Source: Betaproteobacteria bacterium UKL13-2 (GTDB lineage: Bacteria > Pseudomonadota > Gammaproteobacteria > Burkholderiales > Usitatibacteraceae). Taken from it: a DNA stretch of 64,000 nt. The notes beneath the pieces were generated by a model. It ran no database searches, was not told where the DNA came from, and worked only from the letters and a program-made list of their open reading frames with translations. The translations under genes were made by a program, and so were the position numbers. The DNA lies in assembly GCA_001602455.1 (NCBI GenBank), contig CP012157.1, forward strand, positions 987,733 through 1,051,732. The letters are read 5' to 3'. Every line of letters starts with the position of its first letter. Positions within the stretch are counted from its first letter, which is position 1. Positions 41,096-55,851 of the stretch are shown here, piece by piece.

Positions 41096-42105
41096 GACAG
41101 TAAATTGGGGTCAGACACTCATGGCACTACCTTAAGCGATTTTTGCCATGAAAGCGCACGGAAAGAAAGCTGGCTGAGAGCCTTCACTTGTTAAGATGCT
41201 GGTGTCTAACATCAACGTCAAAACAGAAAGGATCAGCCATGTGTGACGATACCAAAAAAACGCCTACAGTCGAGCATTTTTCGTTTCAAGCAGTTTGTCG
41301 CCGAAGCCCCCGGCGCGGCAATGAGCGAGGCAATACCACTGGCGCGGCTGCAATCGATTGTTAATCTTGAGGTCGGCAGCTACCGTGACCGGCTCTACCC
41401 ACCGTTGACGACACTGGGGCTATTCATTGAGCAGAGTCTGTCTGCGGATGGCGCGTGCCAAGATGCCGTCGCCCGATACCTGAGCGCACGCCATGCGCGG
41501 GATCAAGCCCCTTGCAGCCTCAACACCGGCCCTTACTGCAAAGCGCGCCAGCGGTTACCGATTTCGCTGGTAGAACAGCTGAGCGCGACCATTGGAGAGC
41601 GTCTGGAGCAATCCGCACCGAGTCAATGGCGCTGGCGAGGGCGGCGCGTCAAGCTCTTGGATGGCACCACCGTCTCGATGCCGGATACACCGGCCAATCA
41701 AGCGGCATATCCACAAAGCGGCGAACAAGCACCAGGACTAGGATTCCCGTTCGCACAACTCGTCGGCCTCCTTTCCTTGGCCACCGGTGCGGTGCTCGGT
41801 GTCGCGATGGGGTCCACCAAGGGCAAGGGTAGTGGCGAGCAAGCGCTATTTCGTGAACTGATGCTACAGCTCGACAGTGGAGACGTGATTTTGGTGGATC
41901 GCTATCACTGCACTTACTTCACCATTGCCATGCTGTTGGCGCGTGGCATCGATATCTTGACCCGACAACACCAGAAGCGCTTAACCTCTCCGGAGGCGAT
42001 CATCGAGACCTTCGGCGGCGGCGACCGCTTGGTACGATGGGTGCGACCGCAGCGCCCGAAGTGGATGGACGCCAAGCAGTACGCCACGATGCCCGAAGAA
42101 CTCAT

Positions 42106-43634
42106 CCCAAATTTCCCATTAGCCCCAATCTCTAATGGAAGCCATTAGCGCAAGTTATTGATTCGTATTGAGAATTTGGCGATTCTTGGGTAAAGTTGGG
42201 GATCGCGATTTCAGTGCAGGGCTGCCATGGACTTTGAGCTTCGTTTTACGGACAAAGAAATCACCGCTTGGGGCGGCATGAGCCTCATGAAACGCATGCT
42301 CGATCACATGCGCTTTGATACAGCATTGTCTTGCGCTGGCTTGCCCCAGCCCGGCTCCAACCGTGGCTACGCACCCGAGCAACTCATCACCCAATTCATG
42401 CTCTCGGTATGGTGCGGGGCCAACCGCTTTGAACATGGTGAAGTCACCCGCCACGATCCGGTACTGAAACGCATCTTCGGCATCAAGCGTATGGCCAACT
42501 ACAAGGCCGTCATGCGACTGTTTCGCCGCTTTACACAAAACTCCAACGAAGCCGTCATGGACAAGCTCTACGGCTGGATGTTTGAGCAAATCGCCATAGA
42601 CGGCATCACCCTGGATGTGGACTCCACCGTCATGACCCGCTACGGACAGCAAGAAGGCGCTGCACGGGGCTACAACCCGGCCAAACGGGGGCGAGCAAGT
42701 CACCACCCGCTCATGGCCTTTGTCTCAGAGACCCGCATGGTGGCCAACTTGTGGCTTCGCCCAGGCAACACCAGTTCAGCCAACAACATCCAAGGCTTCT
42801 TGGCCAACACCCGACAGCGCCTGGGCAACAAACACATTTGCCTATTACGCGGAGACAGTGGCTTTAGTGACAACGCATTTTTGACCCACTTGGAAGAAGA
42901 GAAATTGCACTACGTCATAGCCCTGCGCCAGACACCGCCACTGCAAAGAGCACTGGTCGATGCCAGCCTTGAGGGCAAGGGATGGTGGGGTCTTGAGGAT
43001 GATAAGGGTAAGGCGGTACCGGGCATTGAGCTCACCCGATTTCGCTACCAGGCCGATAGCTGGTCCAAGCCCCGTTGGGTGACAGGTATTCGCCAGCAGA
43101 TTGACCAACGCGTCAACCCTAAGGGCAAGACCTTGAATCTGTTTGCTGATGACCCGGTGATTGGACGCTACCGCTTCAGCGCACTGGTCAGCGATATGGA
43201 CTTGCCCGCTGAAACCATTTGGCGCACTTACCGGGGGAGAGCCAATTGTGAGAACAGAATCAAGGAGCTCAAGTACGACTTTGCCGCTGACAGCTTCAAC
43301 ATGAAAGATTTCTGGGCCACCGAGGCGGCACTGAACACGGTGATGCTGGCGTACAACCTGATGAGTCTGTTCAGGCAGGTTCTGCTCAAGACGGTCGTGC
43401 GCAAAGGTGGCGTAAATACTCCGATTGAGCACACGCTGCAAACGCTGCGCTACAAGCTATTTGCCAAGCCTGCTTACATCACTACTGAGAGCCGAAGGCC
43501 GCTACTGAATCTGGCGATGGCCATGCAGCACAGGCCGTGGATGAAGGGGCTATGGGATCAGGCCACGCAGTTTGACTTACCGGTCAAATTCGCCACCCAT
43601 CACCCGCCGGGCACGGGCTAATGGAAAATTTGGG
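42106..43634 (+). mobile_element. IS1380-family element inside IS4 copy D (1529 bp)
   Basis: The ends are CCCAAATTTCCCATTAGCCC and, from the right, CCCAAATTTTCCATTAGCCC. A 5-bp duplication CTCAT flanks it (42101-42105 and 43635-43639). It carries one transposase and is distinct from the IS1380-like element at 761 and 52519. The boundary is confirmed because removal restores the IS4 transposase exactly. Confidence 0.95.
42227..43621 (+). CDS. IS1380-family transposase
   Basis: This 464-residue DDE transposase has an N-terminal part typical of the family (ELRFTDKEITAWGGMSLMKRMLDHM, GSNRGYAPEQLITQFMLSVWCGANRFEH). Catalytic Asp residues lie in ITLDVDSTVMTRYGQQEGAARGYNPAKRGRASHHP and LLRGDSGFSDNAF, and the Glu in YRGRANCENRIKELKYDF. 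The gene is complete, with a start 121 bp inside the element. The only copy in the window. Confidence 0.95.
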   Translation: MDFELRFTDKEITAWGGMSLMKRMLDHMRFDTALSCAGLPQPGSNRGYAPEQLITQFMLSVWCGANRFEHGEVTRHDPVLKRIFGIKRMANYKAVMRLFRRFTQNSNEAVMDKLYGWMFEQIAIDGITLDVDSTVMTRYGQQEGAARGYNPAKRGRASHHPLMAFVSETRMVANLWLRPGNTSSANNIQGFLANTRQRLGNKHICLLRGDSGFSDNAFLTHLEEEKLHYVIALRQTPPLQRALVDASLEGKGWWGLEDDKGKAVPGIELTRFRYQADSWSKPRWVTGIRQQIDQRVNPKGKTLNLFADDPVIGRYRFSALVSDMDLPAETIWRTYRGRANCENRIKELKYDFAADSFNMKDFWATEAALNTVMLAYNLMSLFRQVLLKTVVRKGGVNTPIEHTLQTLRYKLFAKPAYITTESRRPLLNLAMAMQHRPWMKGLWDQATQFDLPVKFATHHPPGTG

Positions 43635-44238
43635 CTCATCGTTCGTCAGACCGAGGTAGGTGGTCGCGAGCTGGTGACCACACTCGTCGACGCCAAGCGT
43701 GTCTCAACGAGTGATCTCGATGCGCTCTATCGCAAGCGCTGGATGATCGAGGTTGACTTCCGCAGCATCAAATCCGAGATCGGCATGGATATCCTGCGCA
43801 GCAAGTCGCCGGAGATGGCCAGAAAGGAAGTTGCTGTCCACCTGCTGGCCTATAACCTGATCCGCTCACTCATGGTGCGTGCCGCCGTGCTGGCTCACGT
43901 CCTGCCGCGTGCCTTGAGCTTCAAGGCCACACTTCAGCTTTGGCACGCCTTTAGCCAGCAATGGCGATGGCATCTAGGTGAGGCCACAGAATCCGTCGTG
44001 ACGGCAATGCTTCGTGCAATTTCAACGAGGATCATTCCGCATCGACCAGACCGAATAGAGCCTCATGCCGTCAAGCGACGACCAACAACGCATGCCTACT
44101 TGACAGTCCCACGTGATCAAGCCCGAGCCGCTATCCTCGAAGCGCGAAAATCGCTTAAGGTAGTGCCATGAGTGTCTGACCCCATTTTTAATTTTTATTT
44201 GAGTTGCTGCACTTTCATTGGTTGCAGGCCGTTCACTT

Positions 44239-51218: not shown

Positions 51219-51384
51219 GAACCGAATTATATACTCACAACGCGACACCACAAGTAACTGTAGAGATCACGCGTCGTGCTTCGCGCGCGCGGATATCAGT
51301 TGCAGCCATGGCGAGCGGCAATTCGCCAGCCAGCGCAATATCGAGCAGTTGGCATCGGAGCCATATTGTTCTTCAGTTGATTCG

Positions 51385-51486
51385 CTGGATCAATGTATGA
51401 AATCAGACAGCCCTCGGGAAGGTCCGCTATTGGCCGTTATTACCAATTCTTTCGAGCGTCTATTTTGGAGAAAGGTGTCCACTTGA
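51385..51486 (+). other. short frame with N-terminal likeness to 54436-54500
   Basis: The frame reads DSLDQCMKSDSPREGPLLA; at 54436 a matching frame reads DTVNQVMKSESTCEEPILA. Changes are conservative (D/E, L/I, L/V), which hints that both are remnants or paralogues of a small coding sequence rather than a non-coding repeat. Neither has a clear ribosome site. Around it the 286-bp gap holds nothing else I recognise. Confidence 0.3.
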
Positions 51487-51504: not shown

Positions 51505-51996
51505 TTAGGGTGCAGGGTCGAGATTGACGTTCCATACGCGAAGCCCTTCGCTCCTTGCTGCTTGAGCAAGAGAATTGTCGGCGGTAACCAAAACGGTGGC
51601 CGAATCATTGGTGAGCGAAGAAAAGTAGCCTCGCTTGACGCTCATGATTTGAAACGCGTCGGAAAGATCCAAGCCAGTACGTTGTGCAAGGGCACGCGTT
51701 TCTGAGAAGGTCAAAGGGTCCGTGAAATCGAGGTCCGCAATCTTGCTTGAAGAGGCGCCGTACCAGGCCGTGAGCTGAAATGCTGCATCAAGATAGTCTG
51801 GGAGCATAAGTTGGCCTTTGTGCTTCCACTTGCCCTTAAGTACGTTCATCGCCTCGTAGAAGCAGAAGGGCGTCGTGTATTTCGTTGCGCGCGCGTGCCA
51901 ATACTCCCGAAGAATCGTCGACCCCGGCTCGTCGGCGAAGACCTTCGCTAACGTCGATGCATCAAAGAAGTCCGCTCGTGCAGCAAAAATACTCAT
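51505..51996 (-). CDS. PIN-domain protein (VapC-like), no antitoxin visible
   Basis: This 163-residue PIN-like ribonuclease has acidic residues in FFDASTLAKVFADEPG, FCFYEAMNVLKGKW, GLDLSDAFQIMSVKRG and VLVTADNSLAQAARSEGL. That is the Asp-Glu-Asp-Asp set of the PIN active site. No AbrB-, Phd- or CopG-like antitoxin precedes it; the gene upstream (IS-disrupted, 52054-54342) has no antitoxin features. It may be an orphan toxin or part of a decayed module. Confidence 0.75.
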   Translation of the reverse strand: MSIFAARADFFDASTLAKVFADEPGSTILREYWHARATKYTTPFCFYEAMNVLKGKWKHKGQLMLPDYLDAAFQLTAWYGASSSKIADLDFTDPLTFSETRALAQRTGLDLSDAFQIMSVKRGYFSSLTNDSATVLVTADNSLAQAARSEGLRVWNVNLDPAP

Positions 51997-52518
51997 GTGC
52001 GGGGGCTCAGGTAGCTTTGCCCGGCAAGAGAAACAAGCGAATTGACTGAACCGCTATGCACCTGGCTTCTTCAGCAAGGCGATAAGCTTTGCCGCCATGG
52101 GGGTAAACCGCAGCAGACCACTGTCGTCCCACGTAGGTTCTGCTGTGGTTAGGACTCCTAGAGTTAGCAACCCCAGCGTTATTTGGCCATCGTGCGTGTT
52201 TGGCTTGACTGCGAGTGTCGGACGGTCACGTTCAGCAGGCTCGGTCTCATTGAACCAGATTCGTTCATATCTGAAGTTCGCAATCAGGAACTGCGCTTCA
52301 TCGGCAGAGATATCACGAATCACACGACTCAAGAAAACGGCCTCTTGGTCCGGCATCTCCGGTGTAGATAGGCCGTTGTGTACTGCGTTTCTCAAGAAGC
52401 CCATCTTGCTTTCGTTTGTTGTGTGCAACAAAGCGAGCACTGCTTCGTTGATGAACTTGTACTGCTGGTCGGTCAGCGCAGCCAAATTAGACTCATGCTT
52501 TAGCAGCAGGTCATTCAT

Positions 52519-54157
52519 CCTAAATCCGGCAGTTACCCTGCCGCTGTAAGGTGGGCTGACGGTAGCCAAGGTGGCAGTGGGCGCGTGATTTTGGCCACTA
52601 CGTAGTCCAGAAATGTCTTCCATCGATCCGTAAAAGGCAACTGCTCCGCAATATCCCTGACATGACTTAAAGCCGCACGAATGTTGGCAATGAGCGCGAG
52701 CAACTTGTCCTTGGCAGCATGCATGGGTGTCAGATACAGCGTTGTCTGTCCCGCATGTTTGACAGCGCGCCCCACACTGGCAAGCAATAACGCTCGGCTG
52801 GTTATGGCTTCCATGCGTGCACCCGGCTTGGCCGCCCGGCAATACCAGGACCACCAGTTGTACACCAGCGCTACAGCGCGAGCACTGGTCTGGCAGCGCT
52901 CAATGTCCTGGGTCGTGAAGCCACCCCATCCCCACTGATTTTTGAGCTCGTCAAATCCGTTCTCGCAGTCAGCCCGGTCCCGATAGAGTTGACCGAACGC
53001 GTCCAATGCGTAGGCGCTGTTTGTCACCAGCACCGCGTATTCCCAAGCCTGAACATCCTTGTCCGGCATCAGCAACTCAATCTGCTCGCCCGGCTCGTTC
53101 TTGGTCTTTCGACTCAGCGCCAAATCGGCTTTGACGGCACGCCGCAAGATCACTACCCGACGTGATTTGTCCCAGCCCGAGAGTTTGAGGGTATCTTCGA
53201 CTGCGCTCCAGCCTTGCTCGCTGGGGCCGGGTGTACTCCAGTCATCACGCGCGAATTGGCGTGCCAATAATTTCTTGACACCCACAGTCTGACGCAGCTT
53301 GAACAGGTAGGGCTGGTCTCGCTCCTCCAGCTCGGCGATAAAGGGTTCGTTGCCAAAGCCGCAATCGCCTCGGACCAAGGCCGGACGCTGCTGGGGCGTG
53401 AGCTTTTCCAGTACGCCGATCAGACCAGGCCGCGCTTTGGCCGCGCTGTGCTCTTTGCCGGGGCAGACGACAACGTCCAGCACCAGGCGCAGGTTGCCAA
53501 CCCAGTATGTGTGCAGTGCGTGGCTCGGGCGACCGGGTTTGTGTGGGTTGTAGCTGACCTCAGCTCCGCTTTGTTTTCCGAACATCGGCTTGATGGTGGT
53601 GTCGATATCCAGGATCCAAGGGGTGCTCAGTGCCGCTTGCACACTACCCATGAGCTGGGGGGCAAGCCAGGCCTGGCTTTGCTCGGCGCTCATACGCGAC
53701 AGTGCGCGGCGCAGCGCGTCTTCGCTGATGATTTTCTTCATCCCCAGAATCTGCGGGCTCACCGCGTCGCCGCGCAGCCCGGTGATATGGGCGTAGCGGT
53801 TGTGCCCTGCCAGTATCGCCAGCAGCCATGTGCCCAAGATATCCTGTTTGCTGGGTGCATTGGGGCTTGTGTAGCTCAATGGGCAGCTATCGACCCAGGA
53901 GCTGTACACACCCGTGGTGGCCAAGAACTCGGAGAAGAAGGTCAACTGTGCATTCGGTGTGGCGCTGGCACCATGGTCCCACTTCACATGAATTCGCCCG
54001 CCCGGCGTATCCACCACCATGGCCTCCAGTGCCTGCGTTTGGACAGCAAGTTGACGCCTTTTTGCTTCACCCATTTGGTGACTCCAATAAATCCATTGAA
54101 ATTGGCGTCTAGTCTAGCTTGCAGCCGGTTTACGCAATGTCAACTGCCGGAAATAGG
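52519..54157 (-). mobile_element. IS1380-like insertion sequence, copy B (1639 bp)
   Basis: Same length and ends as copy A (CCTAAATCCGGCAGTT / CCTATTTCCGGCAGTT). The target duplication is TTCAT at 52514-52518 and 54158-54162. It interrupts a hypothetical gene without other loss, so the insertion is recent. Confidence 0.95.
52533..54074 (-). CDS. DDE transposase, IS1380-like (copy B)
   Basis: A 513-residue transposase with the same DDE motifs as copy A (LDIDTTIKPMFG, VRGDCGFGNEPF, DRADCENGFDELKNQW), differing at four positions. The frame is intact and the element ends are perfect, so it is probably the active form. A joined frame reading from 52854 through the IS left end into the disrupted gene is an artefact of the insertion. 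Confidence 0.9.
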   Translation of the reverse strand: MGEAKRRQLAVQTQALEAMVVDTPGGRIHVKWDHGASATPNAQLTFFSEFLATTGVYSSWVDSCPLSYTSPNAPSKQDILGTWLLAILAGHNRYAHITGLRGDAVSPQILGMKKIISEDALRRALSRMSAEQSQAWLAPQLMGSVQAALSTPWILDIDTTIKPMFGKQSGAEVSYNPHKPGRPSHALHTYWVGNLRLVLDVVVCPGKEHSAAKARPGLIGVLEKLTPQQRPALVRGDCGFGNEPFIAELEERDQPYLFKLRQTVGVKKLLARQFARDDWSTPGPSEQGWSAVEDTLKLSGWDKSRRVVILRRAVKADLALSRKTKNEPGEQIELLMPDKDVQAWEYAVLVTNSAYALDAFGQLYRDRADCENGFDELKNQWGWGGFTTQDIERCQTSARAVALVYNWWSWYCRAAKPGARMEAITSRALLLASVGRAVKHAGQTTLYLTPMHAAKDKLLALIANIRAALSHVRDIAEQLPFTDRWKTFLDYVVAKITRPLPPWLPSAHLTAAG

Positions 54158-54676
54158 TTCATTTCTCGAAGGGTAGCCTCGACCCTCAGCTTCTGACGCT
54201 CCGAAGCGAGCGACTTCCCAAGCACAGGAAGCAAGGCCGCCAAGGGGGTACCGGCCGCCGCTGCGATCGCGGTTAACGCCGCTTCAACCGCAAGATTGCC
54301 GGCAATTTTCTCCATTGTGGATGGTTGCTTGATCAACGACATGGCACTCGTCTAAACAATTCAAAAGAAATCTTGAAATTCAACTATTCGGAGCCGCCCG
54401 AATGGGTCAGTGTCGCTCTGTTTTTCATCTGACACGGTGAATCAAGTTATGAAATCAGAAAGCACTTGTGAAGAGCCGATATTGGCCGATTGTGCCGAAC
54501 TCGCCGACTTTCCGCAAATTTGGTTACCGCTCGTTTCCACGCGATTTTCCAGATGGCCGAGGGAAAATCCTCGGCTTACTGCCGCGAATTCAGGCCCAAG
54601 AGCACCAAACTTCCCACCTCTGGCAACACTAGTGGACCGTTGGCTTCATTAGCTCGAAAGCTCGCAGCTCAAACGC

Positions 54677-54693
54677 TGTCCCAACTTGGGACA
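54677..54693. promoter_or_regulatory. 17-bp odd palindrome 1: TGTCCCAACTTGGGACA
   Basis: Perfect dyad with one unpaired central base. It shares its outer TGTCCCAA/TTGGGACA with the site at 54768. It looks like a dimeric repressor operator, and no gene next to it is known to use it. Confidence 0.6.
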
Positions 54694-54745
54694 GTCTTCG
54701 GGAAACAATTTTTGTGCGTTTCAGATTAAATTTTTAATGACATTC

Positions 54746-54762
54746 TGTTCCTAGTAGGAACA
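54746..54762. promoter_or_regulatory. 17-bp odd palindrome 2: TGTTCCTAGTAGGAACA
   Basis: Perfect dyad with an unpaired central G. Its centre is 22 bp, about two helical turns, from that of palindrome 3, so two dimers could bind the same face of the DNA. Confidence 0.6.
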
Positions 54763-54767
54763 AAACT

Positions 54768-54784
54768 TGTCCCAAGTTGGGACA
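54768..54784. promoter_or_regulatory. 17-bp odd palindrome 3: TGTCCCAAGTTGGGACA
   Basis: Perfect dyad, identical to palindrome 1 except for the central base (read on either strand it is the same site). Separated by 5 bp from palindrome 2. Confidence 0.6.
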
Positions 54785-54878
54785 TCGATAGGTCGGTGCC
54801 AAATTGGCCCGCTTGATCCAAGCTTAGCGGTGGGGCCGGTTGGCGCCGCAAACCAAGAAAGTCGACCCTTCGTCCGAT

Positions 54879-54897
54879 GTGTATCTAATAGATACAC
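54879..54897. promoter_or_regulatory. 19-bp odd palindrome 4: GTGTATCTAATAGATACAC
   Basis: Perfect dyad with an unpaired central A; the 17-bp core again starts TGT and ends ACA. The inner half-site ATCTA differs from the CCCAA class, suggesting a related but distinct repressor. Confidence 0.6.
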
Positions 54898-54932
54898 CAC
54901 AGATCTTCTATTGCTGGGTTATTGGATGGCTC

Positions 54933-54949
54933 TGTCCCGACTCGGGACA
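54933..54949. promoter_or_regulatory. 17-bp odd palindrome 5: TGTCCCGACTCGGGACA
   Basis: Perfect dyad, a paired A-to-G/T-to-C change from palindrome 1, meaning the symmetry was kept while the sequence changed. It ends 6 bp before IS copy C. Confidence 0.6.
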
Positions 54950-54955
54950 AATAAA

Positions 54956-55839
54956 CCTATTTCCGGCAGTTGACATTGCGTAAACCGGCTGCAAGCTAGA
55001 CTAGACGCCAATTTCAATGGATTTATTGGAGTCACCAAATGGGTGAAGCAAAAAGGCGTCAACTTGCTGTCCAAACGCAGGCACTGGAGGCCATGGTGGT
55101 GGATACGCCGGGCGGGCGAATTCATGTGAAGTGGGACCATGGTGCCAGCGCCACACCGAATGCACAGTTGACCTTCTTCTCCGAGTTCTTGGCCACCACG
55201 GGTGTGTACAGCTCCTGGGTCGATAGCTGCCCATTGAGCTACACAAGCCCCAATGCACCCAGCAAACAGGATATCTTGGGCACATGGCTGCTGGCGATAC
55301 TGGCAGGGCACAACCGCTACGCCCATATCACCGGGCTGCGCGGCGACGCGGTGAGCCCGCAGATTCTGGGGATGAAGAAAATCATCAGCGAAGACGCGCT
55401 GCGCCGCGCACTGTCGCGTATGAGCGCCGAGCAAAGCCAGGCCTGGCTTGCCCCCCAGCTCATGGGTAGTGTGCAAGCGGCACTGAGCACCCCTTGGATC
55501 CTGGATATCGACACCACCATCAAGCCGATGTTCGGAAAACAAAGCGGAGCTGAGGTCAGCTACAACCCACACAAACCCGGGCGCCCGAGCCACGCACTGC
55601 ACACATACTGGGTTGGCAACCTGCGCCTGGTGCTGGACGTTGTCGTCTGCCCCGGCAAAGAGCACAGCGCGGCCAAAGCGCGGCCTGGTCTGATCAGCGT
55701 ACTGGAAAAGCTCACGCCCCAGCAGCGTCCGGCCTTGGTCCGAGGCGACTGCGGCTTTGGCAACGAACCCTTTATTGCCGAGCTGGAGGAGCGAGACCAG
55801 CCCTACCTGTTCAAGCTGCGTCAGACTGTGGGTGTCAAG
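54956..55839 (+). mobile_element. truncated IS1380-like copy C
   Basis: Begins with the terminal repeat CCTATTTCCGGCAGTT and matches copies A and B up to GGTGTCAAG (55831-55839), then stops abruptly; the distal half and other end are missing. It is in opposite orientation to copy B, 800 bp away, so the two form an inverted pair able to recombine. The base pairs before it (ATAAA) equal the copy A target but no second copy can be checked. Confidence 0.92.
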
Positions 55840-55851
55840 GATCCTCGTTGA
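55039..55851 (+). pseudogene. truncated DDE transposase (copy C)
   Basis: The first 266 residues equal those of copies A and B (one Gly-to-Ser change in LISVLEKL); the frame then runs into four foreign codons (DPR, stop). It retains two of the catalytic Asp residues and lacks the Glu region, so it is inactive. Confidence 0.92.

Follow-up and report, generated by a model that had tools for sequence, protein, structure and literature searches.

Putative orphan plasmid-type parS sites of more than one class in a chromosomal array of 17-bp palindromes

Five perfect palindromes of 17 bp lie within 273 bp of the window, the 64,000-nucleotide stretch of DNA that was analysed here. The reading that we favour, with confidence a little above even, is that these are orphan plasmid-type parS sites of more than one specificity, which were stranded in, or recruited by, a chromosome at a place that has no parA or parB. 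The palindromes of the array have an odd number of bases and use four half-sites: CCCAA, CCCGA, TCCTA and ATCTA. Sites identical to the first three are found at plasmid parAB loci, and none was seen there for ATCTA. If the reading is correct, the array is a case of the centromeres of different plasmids being combined outside a plasmid. The features are collected in Table 1.

Table 1. Palindromes of the array and the features that surround it (positions are those of the window).
Feature	Position	Strand	Remarks
parS-like palindrome, CCCAA class	54677..54693	.	TGTCCCAACTTGGGACA; identical sites adjoin parB on pBcn842-1 (L333)
parS-like palindrome, TCCTA class	54746..54762	.	TGTTCCTAGTAGGAACA; half-site repeated 5' of parA on pQBR55 (L336) and a P. 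frederiksbergensis plasmid (L338)
parS-like palindrome, CCCAA class	54768..54784	.	TGTCCCAAGTTGGGACA
Palindrome, ATCTA class	54880..54896	.	TGTATCTAATAGATACA; no known owner
parS-like palindrome, CCCGA class	54933..54949	.	TGTCCCGACTCGGGACA; half-site also in phage-plasmid parB (L161/L177) and near parB in Cupriavidus (L059)
Segment carrying the array, between inverted IS copies	54158..54955	.	798 bp
IS-A, complete DDE_Tnp_1_4 (IS1380-like) element	52519..54157	-	target duplication TTCAT (5 bp)
IS-B, second copy of the IS-A element	54956..55851	+	inverted relative to IS-A; truncated near 55851
5' part of a gene split by IS-A	54158..54342	-	function unknown; 3' part 52054-52518; no specific link to the array

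An earlier note on this DNA had described the five palindromes, and all of them were found where it had placed them, each perfectly symmetric. They make up five of the six perfect 17-bp odd palindromes in the window. First-order Markov simulation with the dinucleotide composition of the window gives a mean of 1.17 such palindromes per 64 kb, and in 60 simulated runs no 273-bp stretch held more than one. Five in this space is far beyond chance, as the note had argued from a simpler calculation. Its proposal that symmetry is under selection is likewise supported. A scan of the genome for these dyads, which the note had put forward as a check, showed that they are not spread through the chromosome: matches to TGTNCCNANTNGGNACA and to the ATCTA pattern in the whole 3.39-Mb genome are confined to the array block. 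In pattern searches, sampled members of the genus had no such site and the family gave a single imperfect match. A mixed TCCTA-CCCRA pair was sought in viral contigs and none was found.

The array is flanked by inverted IS copies. The truncated copy begins 6 bp past the last palindrome, in agreement with the note, and the DNA that originally lay to the right of 54955 is gone. The statement that no gene adjoins the array has to be corrected, as a minus-strand ORF is present on its left. This ORF starts at 54342, is interrupted by IS-A and resumes at 52518-52054, making up a gene of about 214 aa that has no match in Pfam or PADLOC. Intact homologues occur in three genomes (G009, G105 and G226; one of the same genus and two others of the order) that lack the palindromes, and the gene was therefore rejected as their owner. 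When the 798-bp segment was used in a DNA homology search, only an interspersed repeat in the same genome and genus was matched, with nothing in plasmids, and an Rfam search gave no match. ORF reading and limited domain searches recognised no plasmid backbone genes around the array and no integrase, rep or relaxase near it.

A connection to plasmid partition is seen for the CCCAA/CCCGA class. When GTDB contigs were scanned for the pattern TGTCCCAASTTGGGACA, at least 118 loci were returned, and parB genes of Burkholderiales plasmids, Firmicute elements and a phage-plasmid were found to contain or adjoin TGTCCC(A/G)A-n-T(C/T)GGGACA. Among the at least 118 matches listed, about 41 loci have TGTCCCAA-n-TTGGGACA within a ParB ORF, and a further 26 sites are near parB. 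The first of these numbers comes from an automatic count of 43, less the seed at L053, which proved to be an antisense ORF, and the weak hit L121. The sites adjoin parA-parB pairs in Methylococcaceae and on Burkholderiales replicons (ORF reading; Pfam ParB_N and AAA_31), and the annotated plasmid pBcn842-1 has two CCCAA sites shortly 3' of parB. In many Firmicute elements, where parB is 3' of the ParA gene, the site inside parB is mostly at about nt 463 of some 930 and encodes the linker 'SQVGT'. A 42-kb phage-plasmid of another lineage (L161/L177) has two TGTCCCGAGTCGGGACA sites 36 bp apart inside parB, here with the linker 'SRVGT'. The same DNA is thus present at two unrelated parB positions and linkers, which indicates that the DNA and not the peptide is conserved, and this argues for a parS element.

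The TCCTA class was found on other plasmids, where GTTCCTA-n-TAGGAAC is present three times 5' of parA on pQBR55 and five times 5' of parA on a P. frederiksbergensis plasmid. The pQBR55 genome paper reported that no parS was found (PMC4989453), and we predict that GTTCCTA-n-TAGGAAC is the parS of this plasmid. Further plasmids have the same odd geometry with the half-sites AGCAA, CTCAT, CCCAG, CCAAA and CCATA, each uniform within its plasmid, and some others have even palindromes or iterons instead. These comparisons, the pQBR55 prediction included, would connect a group of plasmid ParB lineages with odd centromeres of 15-17 bp. Separately, candidate centromeres were noted on plasmids of P. 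aeruginosa and A. pittii (L337, L351). In this pair they comprise four copies of TGGTGCTC-n-GAGCACCA that lie between parA and parB at intervals of 33-39 bp, and about 15 TTATCAG-n-CTGATAA iterons 5' of parA, most of them spaced by 47 bp.

For the ATCTA class, no ParB with such sites was found in viral contigs, in 399 genomes of the order or by short-query plasmid BLAST, which is insensitive for 17-mers. The 399 genomes include the one under study and the ATCTA palindrome is absent from the other 398. Viral matches to it look like chance or coding sequence and were rejected as owners.

The genome encodes a single ParB_N protein, which is chromosomal and lies at 391 kb. Canonical parS sites (GTTTCACGTGAAAC) are found near its gene at 385-386 kb, about 650 kb from the array. 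As the chromosomal type of parS (TGTTTCACGTGAAACA, near oriC and parAB) is located there, it does not account for the array. The window contains no parAB, and this chromosomal ParB is the only one on the replicon that carries the array. The assembly contains no non-chromosomal ParB; it consists of one contig and a plasmid could be missing from it.

The closest rival explanation differs from the favoured one only in the number of ParBs that read the array. Here, the five sites would be what is left of a single lost plasmid's centromere, read by one tolerant ParB, with parAB removed by IS activity. All five sites fit TGT-N-Y-C-D-A, their number in 273 bp is like that of the ordinary plasmid parS clusters sampled, which have 3-8 sites, and a truncated locus would agree with the IS copies and the loss of the right flank. 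In addition, CCCAA and CCCGA occur together with one ParB in Cupriavidus (L059) and CCCAA occurs with CGCAA at L052 and L087. These milder mixtures within single systems, in which CCCAA is accompanied by CCCGA, CCCTA or CGCAA, are symmetric one-position variants and suggest that a single ParB of relaxed specificity might recognise two or more classes. However, the sampled plasmid clusters are nearly homogeneous: where at least two dyads cluster at the fetched loci, they almost always share one half-site, a rule to which the window with its four is the extreme exception. Identity between the CCCAA-class and TCCTA-class ParBs is, moreover, only about 32%, compared to 88% between those of the two TCCTA plasmids, and no remnant of rep, ParA or ParB was seen nearby. 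We consider a single lost plasmid to be unlikely.

The earlier note had proposed a control region bound by several related small repressors, perhaps of the HigA/XRE type. In this explanation, the sites are operators of one or more XRE/CI/HipB-type repressors, and the gene under their control was on the right and has been lost. Phage CI and XRE operators are also 17-bp odd dyads and some are related in sequence to the array: a prophage CI gene at L167 carries TGCCCCAATTTGGGACA at its 5' end, with TGTTCCTAGTAGGAACA directly 3' of the gene. XRE genes in two Nocardiopsis (L042, L088) adjoin a CCCAA site, and at L080 a small HTH gene and HipA are preceded, at a distance of 99 bp, by a CCCTA and CCCAA pair. 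The two central sites of the window (54768 of the CCCAA class and its TCCTA neighbour) are 22 bp apart, two helical turns, which is a common spacing for adjacent operators. Against this, the array has no linked repressor gene, no cognate HTH gene lies between the IS copies, and it is rare for one repressor to have several half-sites that differ and are perfectly symmetric. A control region is further disfavoured by the segment having no match to a sigma-70-like promoter, the one type sought. HipBA was rejected as a general owner, as 19 of 19 HipA homologues of the L080 example are without sites, and so was a phage CI repressor, as no PF07022 protein is present in the genome. The neighbours of matching dyads elsewhere, which the note had wanted listed, do include the XRE and CI genes above; identical sites are placed at the parB/parA loci of plasmids from many lineages. 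What survives of the proposal is that differing symmetric half-sites suggest several related homodimeric DNA-binding proteins, while the HigA/XRE identity and the control region are not supported. The repressor reading is weakened by the placement of identical sites at plasmid loci and by the site-free HipA homologues, and we consider it improbable.

That the array consists of hairpins, terminator-like elements or phage regulatory repeats with no connection to ParB is very unlikely, because, although Firmicute copies at L111, L124 and L125 are terminator-like (AAAGTGTCCC...GGGACACTTTTT) and marine phages use the motif 5' of genes, the window sites are without flanking stems or T-runs and one weak terminator-like match falls at a palindrome, with a total no higher than in shuffles. 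The three Firmicute loci are from Clostridia and their palindromes resemble terminator hairpins (AAAGTGTCCC..GGGACACTTT), which at L111 and L124 flank genes reading as hicA/hicB. Four marine phage contigs (L184, L249, L259 and L231) carry TGTCCCAASTTGGGACA 4-10 times each, often shortly upstream of genes. This suggests that the phage copies may be a phage-wide regulatory site, and that proteins of more than one kind have probably made use of the motif.

The interpretation as orphan parS sites can be compared to three known types of centromere. SGI1 carries the IncC parS on a chromosomal island, where it stabilises the island and expels the IncC plasmid by centromere-based incompatibility, an effect that is dose-dependent and weak at single copy (PMC10954446). 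At the level of sequence, the array resembles SGI1 in having sites of plasmid parS type on a chromosomal element without a Par system of its own. The two differ in that the SGI1 sites have an even core of 14 bp (TTTCACATGTGAAA) and a single specificity, whereas the array has odd 17-bp sites of mixed classes. Furthermore, SGI1 is excisable, replicates and has the helper protein Sci, whereas no mobile island was recognised at the array. The Bsr centromeres of Burkholderiales secondary replicons are also short perfect palindromes, with plasmid-type ParBs and narrow specificity, but they are 16 bp long and even, with a central CG (PMC5450999). The parS of plasmid ParABS systems (pBcn842-1, pQBR55 and relatives) is identical in CCCAA and TCCTA sequence and in its odd 15-17-bp symmetry, but has one half-site class and lies beside parAB, whereas the array is mixed and lacks parAB. 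To our knowledge, there is no precedent for a parS array of mixed specificity.

If the sites are orphan parS, their identity to plasmid sites suggests that ParB dimers from visiting plasmids would bind the array in trans. Each palindrome would be bound by the ParB of its own class, which would be CCCAA/CCCGA, TCCTA (pQBR55-like) and possibly ATCTA. The array may then be an inert relic of integrated plasmid pieces. Alternatively, as in SGI1, it may hijack partition or titrate ParB and thereby destabilise the plasmid. A bolder version, in which the array collects the parS of several unrelated plasmids as a centromere decoy of multiple specificity and acts against entrants or hitch-hikes on them, appears to us quite doubtful. 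For any such interference, the dose dependence of SGI1, with its weak effect at single copy, calls for caution with a single chromosomal array. Were the array active, SGI1-style partition hijacking would extend from one plasmid to several, and a centromere-based anti-plasmid function would become directly testable.

Two minor observations concern the surrounding DNA. An interspersed repeat, about 90 bp long and with the core TCACATTGTTTTTCATTTGATTCGCTGGATCAATNTATGAAATCAGAAAGC, has window copies at 54404-54494 and 51367-51436 and is present at loci L002, L003, L005-L009 and L013, with about nine copies in this genome and six in a genome of the same genus. It is often directly 3' of small genes, which include a RelE/HigBA-like pair, another HTH gene and the PIN gene at 51505-51996. 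In addition, the ORF list points to a nested insertion at 41243-44171 of the window, where another transposase-like ORF (42227-43621) breaks up an IS4-like transposase gene.
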